A stretch of 38,503 bases of DNA. Origin: Candidatus Bathyarchaeota archaeon. Lineage in GTDB: Archaea; Thermoproteota; Bathyarchaeia; Bathyarchaeales; Bathyarchaeaceae. The notes beneath the pieces were generated by a model. It made no database searches, was not told the origin of the DNA, and was given only the letters and a program-made list of their open reading frames with translations. Location of the stretch: NCBI GenBank assembly GCA_030608565.1, contig JAUWDY010000019.1, positions 1 through 38,503 on the forward strand. The letters run 5' to 3'. Each line of letters starts with the position of its first letter. Within the stretch, counting starts at the first letter, position 1. Both the position numbers and the translations under genes were made by a program. Positions 12,266-19,878 of the stretch are shown here, one piece after another.

Positions 12266-13642
12266 TTGAAGAGAAAGTTATTTGCACCAATCGCAATTGC
12301 ACTACTACTGATAAGCATCTTCACTGCACTGCCCTTAGTTACAGCACACGCACCAGTGATACTAACAGTTGGAGACATTCGCGCCGCCCCTGTCAGCGTA
12401 CGAGCAGAGAGCCAGTTTAGAATCAATGGAGCTTACCCACCAGGCCAATGGTATACAGACTATGCAGGTGGGATGGTCGCATTTGACATGGACATGATAG
12501 ACGTAGAACAGCTCACCCACGAACAGAACAAATGGTATGGCAAAGGCATCCACGTAGCAGTGTTGGACACTGGAATGCTGCCAAACTGGAACTACTTCTT
12601 CCCCAAGTCACGGATAGACGCCGACCTAGGCATCGGATTTGTACAAGACCTCGAAACTGGCGAAATCACAACCGTCCCATGGGACGATGCTGTAAGTGGG
12701 CATGGAACCCACGTGGCTAGCACGATAATTGGCTACAACTATCATGGATATCCGATCACAGGCGTTGCTCCATTGGCAAAAATCATTCCAGTCAAAGTGT
12801 TATCATTCTATGACTATGATGAATGGTCTGCTTGGGGCACATCCGGAATGGTTGCAGCAGGCATCGACTACATCACATCGCTGGTTGAAGATGGAACTCT
12901 TGAAGCTGGAAAGATAATCATTAACTTGAGCTTGGGCAGTTCTGTGCCATCGTCTGATATCGAAGGAGCCATTGACCTAGCAATTGCTGCTGGGGTCATC
13001 GTGGTCGCATCTGCAGGCAACAATGGTCCCGGTGGCATGGGCTATCCAGGTGGCTATCCACAAGTCATTTCCGCCGCTGCAGCTGGCTGGACCGGACAAT
13101 GGTATCCAAGTGGCAACTATGGCTTCTGGCTTGAAGATGTACCAGAAGACCTGATGACGCCTGCGCCATTATCTATCTACTTCGGTCCTTATGCTGGCAC
13201 ACAAACATACATCACCTACTTCAGCGCTTGGGAACTTGAGGGGCAAGACCTTGACGTTGCAGCACCAGGAAGCTGGTGTGTTGGACCTTACTGGGATCCA
13301 TCCGCTGGACCTTTGCCAGAAGATCCAGAGGACTGCTACTGGTTTGTTGGTGGAACTAGCATGGCAGCTCCACACGTAGCCGGAACCGCAGCGCTCATGG
13401 CTGAGAAGAAAGGACGAAAACTGGTTCAAAGCGAAGTGGAAGACATACTTGAAAGCACTGCAGACATAGCTCCTCTGACATTTGTGAACGGCGGATGGCT
13501 AGGCCCACTTCCATACATGGCGGTCTATGAACTCTACAACGGCTTATACTATTGGACAGAATGGGATGACCCTGCGGTTGGCGCAGGTCTCCTACAGACA
13601 GATGCGGCTGTCGCAGCAGTTGCGGCACTCGGACCCCACTAA
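12266..13642 (+). CDS. Secreted subtilisin-like serine protease (S8 family)
   Basis: This 458-residue extracellular protease has a Sec signal peptide at about 1-29 (basic MKRKLF, hydrophobic core, cleavage near TAHA). The catalytic residues are D101 in VAVLDTGM, H146 in SGHGTHVAS and S365 in GGTSMAAPHVAG, with the oxyanion asparagine N252 in SAGNNG. The region between the signal peptide and the catalytic domain is only about 60 residues, a short pro-segment. The insert at about 280-325 with many aromatic residues is unusual in size. The TTG start is chosen because AGGAAGGA lies upstream at suitable spacing and the nearby ATG is out of frame. The next gene is also secreted and may be a partner or substrate. 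Confidence 0.92.
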   Translation: MKRKLFAPIAIALLLISIFTALPLVTAHAPVILTVGDIRAAPVSVRAESQFRINGAYPPGQWYTDYAGGMVAFDMDMIDVEQLTHEQNKWYGKGIHVAVLDTGMLPNWNYFFPKSRIDADLGIGFVQDLETGEITTVPWDDAVSGHGTHVASTIIGYNYHGYPITGVAPLAKIIPVKVLSFYDYDEWSAWGTSGMVAAGIDYITSLVEDGTLEAGKIIINLSLGSSVPSSDIEGAIDLAIAAGVIVVASAGNNGPGGMGYPGGYPQVISAAAAGWTGQWYPSGNYGFWLEDVPEDLMTPAPLSIYFGPYAGTQTYITYFSAWELEGQDLDVAAPGSWCVGPYWDPSAGPLPEDPEDCYWFVGGTSMAAPHVAGTAALMAEKKGRKLVQSEVEDILESTADIAPLTFVNGGWLGPLPYMAVYELYNGLYYWTEWDDPAVGAGLLQTDAAVAAVAALGPH

Positions 13643-13723: not shown

Positions 13724-16369
13724 TTGGACATGAAAGCGACAAGTTCTCTTTCTACAAAAAAACTCCTGTATATCCTACTCATAATGTTGATGTTTCATTT
13801 GGCCACAGCAGGCGTGCGACTGGCTTCCAGTCAAACCATGGGAACAATAAACGGCAGAATAATCGACTTGAATACTGGGCTGGGAATAGCTGGAGCAACG
13901 GTGTCCGCAAGCGGTCCATCCCAACAGGTCAACACGACGGACTCCAATGGATATTACACAATTTCTGATATAGCTCCGGGACCGTATGTGATTGTTGCCT
14001 CTGCTTCTGGATATCTCAGTCAGACATACAAGCTGTTTTTGCGTGAAACTGCAAATCCCCCTCTTCCTGATTTCAGGTTACACCTGCTATCGATAATAGG
14101 CAGAGTTTACGATTTGTCAACACCCAGTATTGGAATAGCCGAAGCCAACGTTACAATAGGCGGTCATTTCGTCTTCACCAACTCCACCGGATACTACGAG
14201 GTGCTCGATCTATCAGACGGATCATATACAGTTGCTGCCACAGCGCCCGGTTACACTAACGAAACTCAGCAAGTCACCGTGTCTACAGGAATATCCGCTG
14301 TGGCGGACTTCGAGATAAGCCAAGTTGCATCTGGCTCAATTTCTGGAACAGTCACGGACTCCTCAACTAGGCAAGCTCTCTACCAAGCCACCGTGAGAGT
14401 TGGCAGAGGATCATTTGAAAAGCTAGGCGTAACTGATCAAAATGGGGAATACATAATCGAGAATGTGCCGGCGTGGCCCTTCTGGACAATCGATGCCTAC
14501 AAGACGGGATACGTGGCTCAGTCCACAACAACTGAGGTGCAACCTGGAGGAGTGCCTATACTTGACTTTGCATTAACTCCATTCGGAATAATCAACGGAA
14601 CGGTGAAAGATCAAGCTACAGATCAGCCCATTGCAGGGGCACTTGTCAAAGTGGATTCAGCATTCCTCGGCACCACAGACTCTAACGGACACTACACCAT
14701 GTTTGTGCTTGCGGGAAGATACACAGTCACGGCTTCAGCCCCAGGATACGCCAGCGAGTCACAGTCGAATGTTAGGGTTTCTGAAGGAGAAACCACCACT
14801 CAAAATTTTGCACTGGAAACAATTCCCCCCGGAAGCATCATCGGTAACGTGACAGATGTCAAAACAGGTCGTGGAATAGTTGGAGCCACCGTGACGGCTG
14901 ACGGCCACACTAATACTACCGACGTGAATGGCAACTATATTCTCTCCAGCTTGCCGTCCTGGACCTACAATGTAACCGTCTCAGCCTCGGGATACGCAAG
15001 TGATAGCACCAAAAGAACTGTGCCTTCGGGCGGATCGATAACTGCTGACTTCATGTTAGCCTCGTACACCAGAGTTCACTTGAAGCCTTACTCAAATACT
15101 GGAAACCTCGGGCAGTCTTTCAACTTGAACATAAACATCTCAGAGGCTAGGTTCGTGTATAGGTGGGAGGTTTACCTATGGTGGGATCCAGCACTCCTTG
15201 ATGTTGTAGACGTGGTTGAAGGAGACTTTCTTAAGGGTCCTTTTGGCAACCGAACCACTGAACTCAGTTTTGAAACATACCCGAATGAAGGGGTAATCCA
15301 TGTGGAAGGATGGTCAACGCTAGCCACGCCTGACGATGGTGTGAACGGCAACGGAACGCTGGCAACCATAACTTTCAAGATCATGACAAAAGGTGCCTGC
15401 AACATAGACCTCACCAACGCCATGCTGTGGGATCCAAACGGATTTCCAATGTTCCCAAGCGCAATAGAAGGCGCCCTTTTCGAAACGCGCGTGCACGGGG
15501 GTTGCCCCTTTGTTTACGTGTGGAATGGGACCCAATATGTGATCGATAACAATCTTTTGCCTGCCTCTGAGGCGAGTGAAGGAGCTGACGTAGAAGACTA
15601 CTATAGGCTGGAACAGACGCTTGTTCCACAAAAGGGAAAGTTTTCGTTGATGATCAAGGAGTTTGAGCAGGAACACTCGTACTTCGATCAAGTTAAGCTG
15701 ATCGCAGTTGATCATGATTCTGATGTGCATGTGGCTGTGAGCTCCACAGGAGAAATCCTAACCTATAGAAATCCTCACGTACCCTTCTTGGCTATCGATG
15801 GAGACGGAAACAGTTGTTTAGACCTCCTAACCGAGATAGACGGTGAATACTATGAAGGACACGATGGTGACCACCTCGCTCTAGACTTCGCAGACTTGGA
15901 TGTTTCTGATGGGGCAAAACTTGTCTTGGTAACAGATTTTCCACCACTGATGATGAAATGGTCAATACACATTCAAACTCACAACTCAGAAGGAGGGTGG
16001 ATGACAGTCGCTGAGGTTCATCCAAGGGTGAACTGGGCAACCCAGATCGTTGACCTATCCGATTATCTGCCAGATGCCGACGAAGAATTGAAAGTCAGAC
16101 TCTACTTCACCGCAAATCACAAGATTGATTATGTGGGCTTGGACCTAAGCAAGCAAGCTGACACAAAAGTGCGATACGCCACACTAGTCTCATCAACCCA
16201 CTCAAAAGAGGGAAGCATGAAGTTGCAGCTGTTGAGAAGCGATGGTGTTTGTGCTGAACTACTACCAGGCGAACAAATACGACTCGCATTTACGCTTCCG
16301 AAAAATCCAAAAGACGCAAGAATTTTCATCATCTACGTGAAGGGGCGCTACCACAGAAGCCAGAATTAG
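13724..16369 (+). CDS. Large secreted protein: carboxypeptidase-regulatory-like repeats, cohesin-like domain, C-terminal domain
   Basis: This 881-residue secreted protein starts with a signal peptide (hydrophobic stretch about 12-35). About five repeats follow at about 42-450, each with the pattern G-x-I/V-x-D-x-x-T-x-x-P/G-I-x-x-A-x-V ending in T-D-x-N-G-x-Y and a YTVTASAPGY-like strand. This is the carboxypeptidase-D regulatory-like beta sandwich common on archaeal surface proteins. Residues about 455-580 look cohesin-type (WDPALLDVVDV, ATITFKI). The C-terminal third begins with CPFVYVWNGTQYVIDNN and ends without a membrane anchor that I can see. The TTG at 13724 has an AGGGGAA ribosome-binding site; ATG at 13730 is an alternative. 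It is probably expressed with the adjacent protease. Confidence 0.8.
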   Translation: MDMKATSSLSTKKLLYILLIMLMFHLATAGVRLASSQTMGTINGRIIDLNTGLGIAGATVSASGPSQQVNTTDSNGYYTISDIAPGPYVIVASASGYLSQTYKLFLRETANPPLPDFRLHLLSIIGRVYDLSTPSIGIAEANVTIGGHFVFTNSTGYYEVLDLSDGSYTVAATAPGYTNETQQVTVSTGISAVADFEISQVASGSISGTVTDSSTRQALYQATVRVGRGSFEKLGVTDQNGEYIIENVPAWPFWTIDAYKTGYVAQSTTTEVQPGGVPILDFALTPFGIINGTVKDQATDQPIAGALVKVDSAFLGTTDSNGHYTMFVLAGRYTVTASAPGYASESQSNVRVSEGETTTQNFALETIPPGSIIGNVTDVKTGRGIVGATVTADGHTNTTDVNGNYILSSLPSWTYNVTVSASGYASDSTKRTVPSGGSITADFMLASYTRVHLKPYSNTGNLGQSFNLNINISEARFVYRWEVYLWWDPALLDVVDVVEGDFLKGPFGNRTTELSFETYPNEGVIHVEGWSTLATPDDGVNGNGTLATITFKIMTKGACNIDLTNAMLWDPNGFPMFPSAIEGALFETRVHGGCPFVYVWNGTQYVIDNNLLPASEASEGADVEDYYRLEQTLVPQKGKFSLMIKEFEQEHSYFDQVKLIAVDHDSDVHVAVSSTGEILTYRNPHVPFLAIDGDGNSCLDLLTEIDGEYYEGHDGDHLALDFADLDVSDGAKLVLVTDFPPLMMKWSIHIQTHNSEGGWMTVAEVHPRVNWATQIVDLSDYLPDADEELKVRLYFTANHKIDYVGLDLSKQADTKVRYATLVSSTHSKEGSMKLQLLRSDGVCAELLPGEQIRLAFTLPKNPKDARIFIIYVKGRYHRSQN

Positions 16370-16459: not shown

Positions 16460-18505
16460 ATGCTGATTCGAGAAGTCATCCTCGAAAATTTCATGTCTTA
16501 CGAATATGCTAGGATACCCTTTAAACCAGGCGTCAATATCGCTTGCGGACCTAATGGCTCAGGCAAATCGTCCATACTACTTGGGATTTCAGTTGCGCTA
16601 GGTCAATCCTACACCGAGCGATCTAAAAAGTTAAGCGATCTCATTCGATGGGGTAAAGACCAAGCACGCGTCACGTTAGTTTTGGACAACTCTCGAAAAA
16701 GCGGGCGTCGACCAGTTCCAAAAATCAACAAAGACTACATTTTTTTGACAAGAATGTTGAGGCGTGACGGAAAATACTGGTGCGAATTAGAAAATACGGC
16801 TGCAAACAAGAGAGATGTCGAAAGGCTTCTCTCAAAACTCGGAGTTGACCCAGACAACATGCTAATTATTATGCACCAAAACATGGTGGAACAGTTCACA
16901 GTGCTCCAGTCTCAAGAAAAGCTCAAGATGGTGGAAGCAGCAGTGGGGTTCGAATCCTACCGCCAAAACGTTTCTAAGGCTCAACGAAAGCTTAGTCGTA
17001 TTCTAAGCCAAGAAGAGTCGGTGGGCAAGCTCCTCGAATCTGCTGAACAGACGCTAGGCTATTGGAGAGAACAGTACGACAGGTACCAACGGAAAAAACA
17101 GCTAAGAATGAAGCGGAAATTCCTTGAACGAGAATCGGCATGGGCCGGAGTTTCAAGGCGTGAGAAAACGGTCACTGAACTGAGAAATCAGGTTCGAGAA
17201 AAAGAAAGTGAAATCTCACATATCGAGAATGAAACAGAAATCATTGGCGATCAATTGAACACGCTTCAGGTGAGGCTGGAACAAGCGAAGACAGAATGGC
17301 AAAACCTTGCTCAAAAACGATTGAAACTGGAATACGAAAAGGCAAAGCACGAAGTAGGCGTTTCACTGACCAATCAAACCATAGAAAAAACACAATCTTG
17401 GTCAGAAATTCGACAGAAAGGAATGAAGGATTGCCTAGACAAAATAACCCAGCTAGAGACGACGTTTCATAAGATTGTAAACCCCATAGATACCAAAACT
17501 CGATTTGCAGAACTCAAAGAAACCTGCGAAAATTTTGAAAACACATGGACTCAGCAACTAAACCTTAGAAATGAAAGTTTGAAAGCCTCTATTGAAAACT
17601 CCTACGAGCAACTCGAAAAGTTGCGTGTCCAAATCTCGGACGTTGAAGCAAGGGGGGGTCACCTGAATTTCGAGATCGAAGGTACCAACGGGCAACTTTT
17701 GGATCGTAAGATTAACCTGGCTTTACTGCAGTATCAAAAAGAAATCGCCACAAAGACTCTCGAAAAACTGAAAAAACAGCTTAAAGTCTCGCTTGCTGAT
17801 CTTGACGAAACAGTAGAAAAGGCTGAGGCGATAGGTTCACGGATCGTGCCCACGAAAAATATCGCAGAGGTCTTAGACGAAATTCGAGTGACAGATGGGC
17901 ACCTCGCCGCCCTTGCCGACGTTTCCGAAGACATCGAACGTATGTACGAATCCTACTCTAAGCTTTACTTAGAACTGAAGGAAAAGGCTCAGTTGGTTGC
18001 GGAAAACCGTGAAAAAGTCTTGGAAGAAGTAAAGACGAGGATGACAGCGTGGAGAATGGTTATTGAAGACCTCCTAAAGGTTGTCAACCTCCGATACGAG
18101 GGAATCCTTTCACAAGCTCAAGCGATTGGAGAGGTTAATTTGGTCAATGAACATGATATTGAAGATGCCGGTCTCGAAATACTCGTGGGTTTCAAGGGAG
18201 GAAAACCTGTTCCTCTTAACTCCTACACGCAGAGCGGAGGGGAAAGAAGCATTGCAACCATAAGTTTTCTCCTCGCGTTGCAGCAGCACGTTCGATCTCC
18301 GTTCAGAGCTGTTGACGAATATGATGTTCACATGGACCCCAAAAACAGAGAGATTATCGCTAATCTACTTGTTTCCTCGATTAAGGGACGGGATGCCCAA
18401 TACTTAGCAATCACGCCTAGCCAGATGACGTTCACGGGAAAAGATGTTCACATTATCACAGTTCAAAACGTTGAGGGGACTTCGTTGATTAAAGAGGTAG
18501 TCTAA
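16460..18505 (+). CDS. Short SMC5/6-like ATPase
   Basis: This 681-residue protein resembles the SMC/Rad50 family, and its head most resembles eukaryotic SMC5/SMC6. The N-terminal head starts IREVILENFMSYEYARIPF, then PGVNIACGPNGSGKSSILLG with Walker A at 30-38, LGQSYTERSKKLSDLIRWG, and LIIMHQNMVEQF (the Q-loop region). The C-terminal head has the ABC signature SGGERS at 592-597 and Walker B with PFRAVDEYDVHMDPKNRE (614-631), close to the SMC6-type LDEFDVxMD pattern. Between them, about 160-520 is charged coiled coil. I see no globular Gly-rich hinge. It is much shorter than a standard SMC (about 1,100 residues). TTTTTAATA (about 16410) is a likely TATA box. It is the first gene of a three-gene operon. 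Confidence 0.85.
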   Translation: MLIREVILENFMSYEYARIPFKPGVNIACGPNGSGKSSILLGISVALGQSYTERSKKLSDLIRWGKDQARVTLVLDNSRKSGRRPVPKINKDYIFLTRMLRRDGKYWCELENTAANKRDVERLLSKLGVDPDNMLIIMHQNMVEQFTVLQSQEKLKMVEAAVGFESYRQNVSKAQRKLSRILSQEESVGKLLESAEQTLGYWREQYDRYQRKKQLRMKRKFLERESAWAGVSRREKTVTELRNQVREKESEISHIENETEIIGDQLNTLQVRLEQAKTEWQNLAQKRLKLEYEKAKHEVGVSLTNQTIEKTQSWSEIRQKGMKDCLDKITQLETTFHKIVNPIDTKTRFAELKETCENFENTWTQQLNLRNESLKASIENSYEQLEKLRVQISDVEARGGHLNFEIEGTNGQLLDRKINLALLQYQKEIATKTLEKLKKQLKVSLADLDETVEKAEAIGSRIVPTKNIAEVLDEIRVTDGHLAALADVSEDIERMYESYSKLYLELKEKAQLVAENREKVLEEVKTRMTAWRMVIEDLLKVVNLRYEGILSQAQAIGEVNLVNEHDIEDAGLEILVGFKGGKPVPLNSYTQSGGERSIATISFLLALQQHVRSPFRAVDEYDVHMDPKNREIIANLLVSSIKGRDAQYLAITPSQMTFTGKDVHIITVQNVEGTSLIKEVV

Positions 18506-19324
18506 TTGTCCGCAAAAAGGCAGAGGAAAAAACTTGGCAGCCAACGTCTTCAACGCGTCATAGCCCTATGCAAATCAATTGAGGAAAGAGGTCTTGATCC
18601 TTTCATCGTGGATGTTGACGACATTCTAACGGTTGTTCGAGAATATTTTCCAGAGTGGGAGCTGCCGGAAGAACTCTGCTTAGACTCCGAAGCTATTCAC
18701 AAACTAGCCTCGGTCATTAAGCTCCAAAGCGACTGGGTGAAGCATCAGTCAACTTCTCTCTACACTGATCCGTTTCTGCTTGAGGAGAAAATACGAAGGC
18801 TAAGCAAAGAAGAGCTTGCTAACCTTTTTCTTGAGATTTGGCATCCTATTGTTGAGTTAGAACAAATATCCCCTCACAGCTTGGCTGAAGCCACCAAATA
18901 CTGGCAAAACCTCCTTCCAATTAGCGAGAGATGGCTAAAAACCTCCCCTCTAGAAACTGAAACTGGAGCCACAACAAGGGAAGAGCTAATCAAGCAGAGA
19001 ATACTCGCTGAAAAAGCTTTCTCAGAAGAGTTAGAAATGTTTTGGGAAGACTTGAAACAGAAGGTCGACGATGCGGGCAAGATTCGATACTGGGATTTTG
19101 TTGGCGCCGACACGTATTCTGAAACGATAAAGCGAGCGTATATGACGAGTTTTCTTGTAACATATGGATATGCAACCTTGGAAGTGCATCGACTAGAGGA
19201 AGAGATTTTCATTAAACCCTTCGAAAAACCAGCGTTTATGATCGGGAAAAAGCAGTTGATCTCTATTCCCGTTTCTGTGAGTGTCGAAGAATGGATGAAG
19301 TGGAAAAGAGGCGAGCAGGATTGA
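18506..19324 (+). CDS. Kleisin-like subunit for the SMC-like ATPase
   Basis: This 272-residue protein starts with TTG directly after the TAA of the SMC-like gene, with no spacing, so translation is coupled. The N-terminus (GLDPFIVDVDDILTVVREYF, about 30-49) is helical, as in the ScpA/kleisin segment that binds the SMC neck. The C-terminal region (about 205-245) has YMTSFLVTYGYATLEVHRLE followed by IFIKPFEKP. This looks like the ScpA winged helix that contacts an SMC head (pattern F-L-x-x-L-E-L then L-x-Q-x-x-x-F). The middle is helical and acidic. Kleisin assignment rests on this pattern plus gene position and is not certain. The gene overlaps the next by 34 bases. Confidence 0.55.
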   Translation: MSAKRQRKKLGSQRLQRVIALCKSIEERGLDPFIVDVDDILTVVREYFPEWELPEELCLDSEAIHKLASVIKLQSDWVKHQSTSLYTDPFLLEEKIRRLSKEELANLFLEIWHPIVELEQISPHSLAEATKYWQNLLPISERWLKTSPLETETGATTREELIKQRILAEKAFSEELEMFWEDLKQKVDDAGKIRYWDFVGADTYSETIKRAYMTSFLVTYGYATLEVHRLEEEIFIKPFEKPAFMIGKKQLISIPVSVSVEEWMKWKRGEQD

Positions 19325-19878
19325 GGCGAAAAGGGTATTACATGAGAAAAATTAAGAGAGCCACGCATCTCCTATTTTACAAGCATCACAGAAAGCCGGG
19401 AGTGAAGGGCTGGGAACTAAGAAGAAGGTTAGGCTCTGACTATCCTAAGGTGCTTGGGATACTGGGCGGTCATTTGGAAAAATTGGATTTACAAGTGAAG
19501 ACAGTTTTTGAAGGGGAAAAACCAGTTGAGAAACCGACTGTTCAGCAGCTGGACAAAGCTCGATTCTATATAACGCTTCGAGGAAGCCTCACGCCAAAAG
19601 AGACTAAAATGATGGGTTGGCGCATTGACGACATCGCGGGGCTAGCTACAGCTATCTCTTGTATAATATCAAAGAAAGGAAAGGCACCAAGAGAAGAGGT
19701 GGAAGACCTTCTGCGGAACAAGCTTCCAGGCTGGAGGGTAGATATGAACATGAATCGTTACATTCGATCTGGCTACCTAGCTGAAGATGAGAACAAACAA
19801 TTATACCTCGACTGGAGAACCCGTGCTGAGATTGATCAGAAAGCATTAGTTGACCTTCTTCTGGGAACAGAAAGCTGA
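19291..19878 (+). CDS. Winged-helix (kite-like) third subunit of the SMC operon
   Basis: This protein is 195 residues from the ATG at 19291, or 178 from ATG 19342, which has an AAAGGG ribosome-binding site and may be the true start. It has two winged-helix-like halves. The first runs about 25-70 (HHRKPGVKGWELRRRL, VLGILGGHLEKLDL). The second runs about 115-180 (DDIAGLATAISCIISKKGKA, then PREEVEDLLRNKLPGW, then a hydrophobic wing). Tandem winged helices are the plan of ScpB and of the Nse1/Nse3 kite subunits that bind kleisins. The position, third after an SMC head and a kleisin-like gene, supports that role. It ends five bases before the stop of the convergent gene. No zinc ring as in Nse1 is present. 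Confidence 0.55.
   Translation: MDEVEKRRAGLRRKGYYMRKIKRATHLLFYKHHRKPGVKGWELRRRLGSDYPKVLGILGGHLEKLDLQVKTVFEGEKPVEKPTVQQLDKARFYITLRGSLTPKETKMMGWRIDDIAGLATAISCIISKKGKAPREEVEDLLRNKLPGWRVDMNMNRYIRSGYLAEDENKQLYLDWRTRAEIDQKALVDLLLGTES

Follow-up and report, generated by a model that had tools for sequence, protein, structure and literature searches.

A hingeless archaeal SMC in an operon with a kleisin and a kite: a probable minimal SMC5/6-type complex

Does an archaeal operon that joins an SMC-like ATPase to two small downstream proteins encode a counterpart of the eukaryotic SMC5/6 complex, or a form of some other SMC system? The question is raised by three consecutive genes (hereafter the trio) at positions 16460-19878 of a 38,503-nucleotide stretch of DNA from Candidatus Bathyarchaeota archaeon (GenBank assembly GCA_030608565.1, contig JAUWDY010000019.1). 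This whole stretch, the window, lies on contig 45 of a 1.76-Mb assembly that is 98.5% complete. We find that the SMC ATPase, the kleisin and the kite encoded here are each, independently, closest to the SMC5/6 core rather than to other SMC complexes, and we put the probability that the operon encodes a minimal archaeal SMC5/6-type complex at roughly 0.82. The features of the operon, with the evidence for each, are as follows.

16460..18505, plus strand: SMC5/6-type SMC ATPase, 681 residues (Pfam SMC_N 4.6e-35; PDB relatives; head tree)
16547..16570, plus strand: Walker A GPNGSGKS, residues 30-37 (G30-K36 and S37 show no or almost no variation among 26 homologues)
18233..18247, plus strand: ABC signature SGGER, residues 592-596 (invariant; context TQSGGERS as in SMC5; yeast SMC5 has TQSGGERA)
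18299..18337, plus strand: Walker B and D-loop PFRAVDEYDVHMD, residues 614-626 (like SMC6 PFRCLDEFDVYMD; alignment with human SMC6)
18494..18498, plus strand: Shine-Dalgarno-like GAGGT, 7 nucleotides before the kleisin TTG start (sequence)
18506..19324, plus strand: Nse4-type kleisin, 272 residues, TTG start (AlphaFold2 model, Foldseek, PDB profile, Pfam Nse4_C)
19010..19219, plus strand: kleisin C-terminal winged helix, residues 169-238 (AlphaFold2 secondary structure; Nse4_C match at residues 201-237)
19291..19878, plus strand: kite of Nse1/Nse3 type, tandem winged helix, 195 residues by longest open reading frame (AlphaFold2 model, Foldseek, Pfam in some homologues)
19308-19315, plus strand: GAGGCGAG, Shine-Dalgarno site upstream of the kite TTG (sequence)
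19321..19324, plus strand: TTGA, probable kite start overlapping the kleisin stop (sequence; ATGA/TTGA in relatives)

The first-pass annotation had proposed three tightly coupled genes here, and the three plus-strand open reading frames are borne out at these coordinates. The TAA stop codon of the SMC gene abuts the TTG start of the kleisin gene, leaving zero bases between them as had been noted. The 34-base overlap reported between kleisin and kite stands for the longest open reading frames, but it holds only if the first ATG is taken as the kite start. Kite homologues without a long overlap start at an ATGA or TTGA that overlaps the kleisin stop; because relatives use this type of start and the window has a TTGA with GAGGCGAG upstream, the two genes most likely overlap by only 4 bases, and the longer overlap is probably an artefact of a mis-called start. 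Counted from the TTG at 19321, the kite would probably be 185 residues long rather than 195. Judged from the nucleotide sequence, the abutting and overlapping genes and their Shine-Dalgarno sites point to translational coupling.

Affinities of the SMC, kleisin and kite

The SMC protein comprises an N-terminal head (about residues 1-200), coiled-coil arms and a C-terminal head (about residues 530-681), and the head motifs quoted in the first-pass annotation are all present in its open reading frame. Across 26 diverse homologues the ATPase residues GPNG.GKS, SGGER, the Walker B DE and the D-loop D are invariant. The motifs form a mosaic, with TQSGGER, a serine or threonine right after it and an ITP motif shared with SMC5, and FR.(V/L)DE(Y/F)DV.MD shared with SMC6. 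The window’s genome carries a single SMC gene of this type.

Searched against the PDB as a single sequence, the SMC finds SMC6 and SMC5 as its top matches. A profile built from the 26 homologues scores 241 bits against SMC6 and 230 against SMC5, followed by Smc (177), SMC2 (154), SMC3 (147), SMC4 (121), SMC1 (120) and Rad50 (50). As a control, the genome’s canonical SMC (1182 residues) matches Smc and SMC1-4 in the PDB, with no SMC5/6 chains among its 49 matches at 1e-10. A tree of head sequences rooted on Rad50 joins the trio SMCs and SMC5/6 with support of 100/98 and sets canonical SMC apart at 100/99; this tree covers the trio SMCs, canonical SMC, Rad50 and three eukaryotic sequences, taken from PDB alignments and with SMC5 on a long branch, and SMC1-4 are represented by the profile scores. 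The approximately unbiased (AU) test rejects a placement of SMC5/6 outside the trio and canonical SMC (p 0.0197). Monophyly of the trio SMCs is not rejected (p 0.347), and a branching of SMC5 and SMC6 inside or beside them is compatible with the data in either case. The earlier proposal that the head is of SMC5/6 type is thus upheld by the profile scores, the canonical-SMC control and the tree; with Rad50 as the outgroup, the ATPase does not cluster within Rad50/SbcC.

What the first-pass annotation had overlooked is that this SMC has neither a hinge nor a zinc hook. The SMC_hinge model finds no match in any of the 26 homologues, a CXXC zinc hook is absent from 29 of 29, and a scan of the window’s genome with SMC_hinge returned the canonical SMC as its sole match. 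Trio SMCs are 579-699 residues long, against about 1130-1190 for most canonical SMCs, and if the head takes about 350 residues each arm spans about 115-165. Size and the missing hinge are likewise features of ASRPs, and the protein scores 65 bits with the NCBIfam ASRP model, as might be expected if it were of the Rad50, Sph or coalescin (ASRP) kind and its neighbours were unrelated. The cut-off of that model is 300 bits, however, and most ASRPs possess the zinc hook (PMC9389158) that the trio homologues lack. Rad50 itself is far behind SMC6 in the profile scores and is the outgroup of the head tree, and the genome has a separate Rad50 gene beside an Mre11-like gene. We regard this alternative as highly improbable.

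The second protein had been described as ScpA/kleisin-like; it proves to be a kleisin, with Nse4 as a closer relative than ScpA. In its AlphaFold2 model, helices, one of them long, make up the N-terminal domain, and a short linker of poor order leads to a winged helix at the C-terminus. Foldseek places Nse4 in the Smc5/6 holocomplex at rank 1 (E 4e-4) and Nse4 again at rank 2, with ScpA, Scc1 or Smc5/6 entries at ranks 3-9, for the most part C-terminal domains of ScpA or Scc1. A profile of 29 kleisin homologues matches yeast Nse4 (2.8e-6) and human EID3 (1.1e-5) in the PDB, then the ScpA C-terminal domain (0.08 and 0.12) and the N-terminal part of ScpA (0.42). When these 29 were scanned singly, Pfam Nse4_C was matched by 24 (best 3.5e-7) and each of the other Pfam families listed by at most one; in a scan of the whole genome with Nse4_C, the kleisin gene is the sole match (E 0.03). 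An NCBIfam scan of the kleisin gave no match. In a few relatives (G307, G314, G330 and G318) the Nse4-like kleisin appears as two copies or pieces, and a duplicated trio is possible there.

For the third protein, a sequence-profile search of the PDB returned nothing certain, and a fold search settled its identity. The AlphaFold2 model (predicted local distance difference test, pLDDT, 82; predicted template modelling score, pTM, 0.65) is the tandem winged helix that had been predicted. The four top Foldseek matches (E 8.5e-5 to 1.9e-4) all come from structures of Nse1-MAGE or Nse1-Nse3-Nse4, and ScpB follows at rank 6 and MukE at rank 21; structure prediction and Foldseek thus gave no unrelated fold for either kleisin or kite. 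The sequence evidence is weaker, with Pfam MAGE matched by six of 29 kite homologues (2.8e-4) and SMC_Nse1 by four (1.2e-4). No RING domain was matched in the kite, which ends after its second winged helix. The net charge of the first 70 residues is +13 in the window’s protein and positive in 28 of the 29 homologues, and this basic N-terminal half is consistent with the DNA-clamping role of Nse3 in Smc5/6 (PMC10512200).

The ScpA and ScpB matches raise the question of whether the operon is a divergent Smc-ScpAB, that is, an ordinary prokaryotic condensin that has lost its hinge. The kleisin profile does reach ScpA weakly, and it also finds the genome’s own ScpA at 2e-4, as expected for a kleisin. 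Yet Nse4 leads ScpA by four orders of magnitude in the PDB profile search, and the head tree separates canonical SMC from the trio. Moreover, the genome encodes its hinge-containing canonical SMC separately, with ScpA directly after it, and kites are reportedly lacking in canonical archaeal Smc-ScpA (PMC7055376). A divergent Smc-ScpAB is, in our judgement, quite unlikely.

Gene order, distribution and neighbours

We observed the linkage of the three genes across wide phylogenetic distances. Among related Bathyarchaeia, 79 of 80 loci contain all three genes, and 78 have them side by side in the same order. The order SMC-kleisin-kite is also kept in 17 of 20 loci, each drawn from a different distant family of Thermoproteota; in the remaining three, the SMC gene lies nearby on the other strand or several kilobases off. 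This conserved order in both related and distant loci therefore excludes a chance arrangement. When kleisin and kite profiles were run over 300 genomes of the window’s phylum, Thermoproteota, the kleisin was found in 126, the kite in 125, both in 124 and either in 127, or about four in ten.

Across the same 300 genomes, the trio shows no association with the hinge SMC: 54 genomes have both, 73 the trio only and 68 the hinge SMC only. This hinge-based count underestimates canonical SMC, and hence 19 genomes were rechecked with SMC_N. In ten of these, which are 91-99% complete (G004, G014, G022, G030, G008, G062, G109, G115, G218 and G242), we found no second SMC of about 1100-1200 residues besides that of the trio, and the trio could be the one SMC-kleisin system that they have. 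Two canonical SMCs of 1285-1305 residues, at L188 (G015) and L189 (G091), have a Walker A of GRNGSGKC or GPNGQGKC followed by extra sequence that looks like an intein inserted at the P-loop.

Could the trio instead be a defence system against plasmids or viruses, of the kind of Wadjet, MksBEFG or Lamassu? Both SMC5/6 and Wadjet are tied to immunity against foreign or extrachromosomal DNA (PMC10586767), and the SMC gives generic PADLOC matches to the LmuB, AriA and JetC models. Neither the kleisin nor the kite matches any PADLOC model, however, and nuclease partners such as JetD do not recur beside the operon. The broad distribution, mostly in single copy and at conserved chromosomal sites, is also unlike that of a defence island. 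We consider a defence system quite unlikely.

Two gene families do recur beside the operon. A family of about 230 residues adjoins the trio in 34 loci, including seven distant families, mostly in divergent orientation upstream, and gave no convincing match in Pfam, NCBIfam or the PDB. In the 300 genomes, 111 have both this family and the trio, 16 the trio only, 14 this family alone and 159 neither (Fisher 8e-48, odds ratio about 79, uncorrected for relatedness). In G085, G194 and G218 the SMC gene is separated from those for the kleisin and kite, and the gene for the 230-residue protein remains beside the SMC. From these patterns in gene content, the protein is a candidate fourth component or regulator of the trio. 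The second family, an Lhr-type DNA helicase of about 950 residues, lies convergently downstream of the kite in 12 loci, which include nine from distant families. We take both families as leads towards a role in genome maintenance, not as proof of one. Representative genes are the following.

L055:4926-5615, minus strand: member of the family of about 230 residues (alignment A6)
G000:C36:6244-6921: copy of the same family in the window’s genome, on contig 36 (genome search)
L134:11210-14065, minus strand: Lhr-type helicase (also in L123, L126, L128, L129, L132, L133, L135 and others)

In many Bathyarchaeia (for example L026, L046 and L061), the operon adjoins an apparent RNA polymerase/L30e/NusA gene cluster. 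In the window itself, a subtilase gene at 12266-13642 precedes a gene at 13724-16369 whose secreted product has repeated carboxypeptidase-regulatory-like domains as well as a cellulosome-type Cohesin domain, which is unrelated to SMC cohesin.

Weighing the reading and a proposed mechanism

Several results weigh against a minimal SMC5/6-type complex. A grouping of SMC5/6 with canonical SMC is not formally rejected by the AU test (p 0.109), with SMC5 on its long branch. Confidence in the kleisin model is moderate (pLDDT 74, pTM 0.37), and the tie of the kite to Nse1/Nse3 is at the level of fold, its sequence profile reaching a MAGE protein at E 0.52. The trio is missing from two closed genomes, G073 and G266, which have canonical SMC, and it is therefore dispensable there. 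The link to Lhr consists of gene adjacency only, in convergent orientation. Finally, we infer that the three proteins assemble into one complex; the same holds for its stoichiometry, its clamping of DNA and its cellular role.

In the mechanism that we propose, the SMC would form a homodimer, in which one Nse4-like kleisin links one head at its neck to the other head at its cap, and a kite dimer would sit on the short kleisin linker. ATP would engage the two heads, with DNA held on top of them. The kleisin-kite module, in which the N-terminal half of the kite is basic in nearly all homologues, could then close a clamp around the DNA, which hydrolysis would reopen. With short arms and no hinge, the ring would either be shut at its apex through contact between the coiled coils or stay open there, and clamping or bridging of DNA seems likelier than extrusion of large loops. 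The likely role would be genome maintenance in replication or repair, beside canonical Smc-ScpA where both exist.

Of the SMC complexes in eukaryotes, SMC5/6, which guards the chromosomes of our own cells, is the one understood least. A complete archaeal three-gene counterpart suggests that an SMC, an Nse4-type kleisin and an Nse1/3-type kite were together before eukaryotes, and that duplication then gave SMC5 and SMC6 on the one hand and Nse1 and Nse3 on the other. We see even odds for a broader proposition: a hingeless, homodimeric SMC5/6-type complex of one SMC, an Nse4-like kleisin and a kite is widespread in Thermoproteota, has the 230-residue family as a fourth member and serves as the sole SMC-kleisin complex in some lineages, and the eukaryotic complex derives from it by SMC and kite duplication. 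The published view that SMC complexes of archaea are kite-less also needs qualifying in the light of the trio. A hingeless SMC with both kleisin and kite would provide a test of whether DNA clamping or loop extrusion needs a hinge. Small and mostly encoded in one copy, the complex lends itself to reconstitution, and the origin of SMC5/6 becomes testable in simple cells.

Comparison with known systems

One review gives Smc-ScpAB, MukBEF/MksBEF/Wadjet and Smc5/6 as the complexes with kites (PMC10512200). Our literature search found no report of an archaeal Nse4-like kleisin and kite in an operon with an SMC5/6-related SMC, although one may be contained in the preprint of van Hooff et al. (2024), which deals with prokaryotic SMC roots. 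An archaeal clade of SMC proteins that groups with SMC5 and SMC6 has already been named “SMC5/6-related” (Yoshinaga et al. 2022, PMC9389158), and, by the definition given there, the trio SMC very probably belongs to this same family. That paper reports the SMC only and does not describe a kleisin, a kite, an operon or the missing hinge.

The ASRPs (coalescin ClsN and Sph) resemble the trio SMC in being archaeal, hingeless and of similar size, and differ from it in their zinc hook and in having no conserved gene neighbourhood (PMC9389158). MukBEF and MksBEF/Wadjet share the organisation of SMC, kleisin and kite, whereas the trio’s partner proteins have no PADLOC match and the operon has no JetA, JetB or JetD partners and no nuclease gene. 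Canonical archaeal Smc-ScpA, present elsewhere in the same genome, likewise combines an SMC with a kleisin, but its SMC has a hinge and 1182 residues, its kleisin is of ScpA type and it generally has no kite (PMC7055376).

The eukaryotic SMC5/6 core (SMC5, SMC6, Nse4, Nse1 and Nse3) shares with the trio the plan of SMC, short kleisin and kite, and is its nearest relative by profile, by fold and, for the SMC, by tree. It differs in having two heterodimerising SMC paralogues where the trio has one SMC gene, hingeless and with short arms, and in having both Nse1 and Nse3 where the trio has one short kite without a RING. Because it lacks an SMC heterodimer, a hinge and a RING kite, the trio falls outside the eukaryotic complex in its defined form; it probably works like the SMC5/6 core, and is probably homologous to it.

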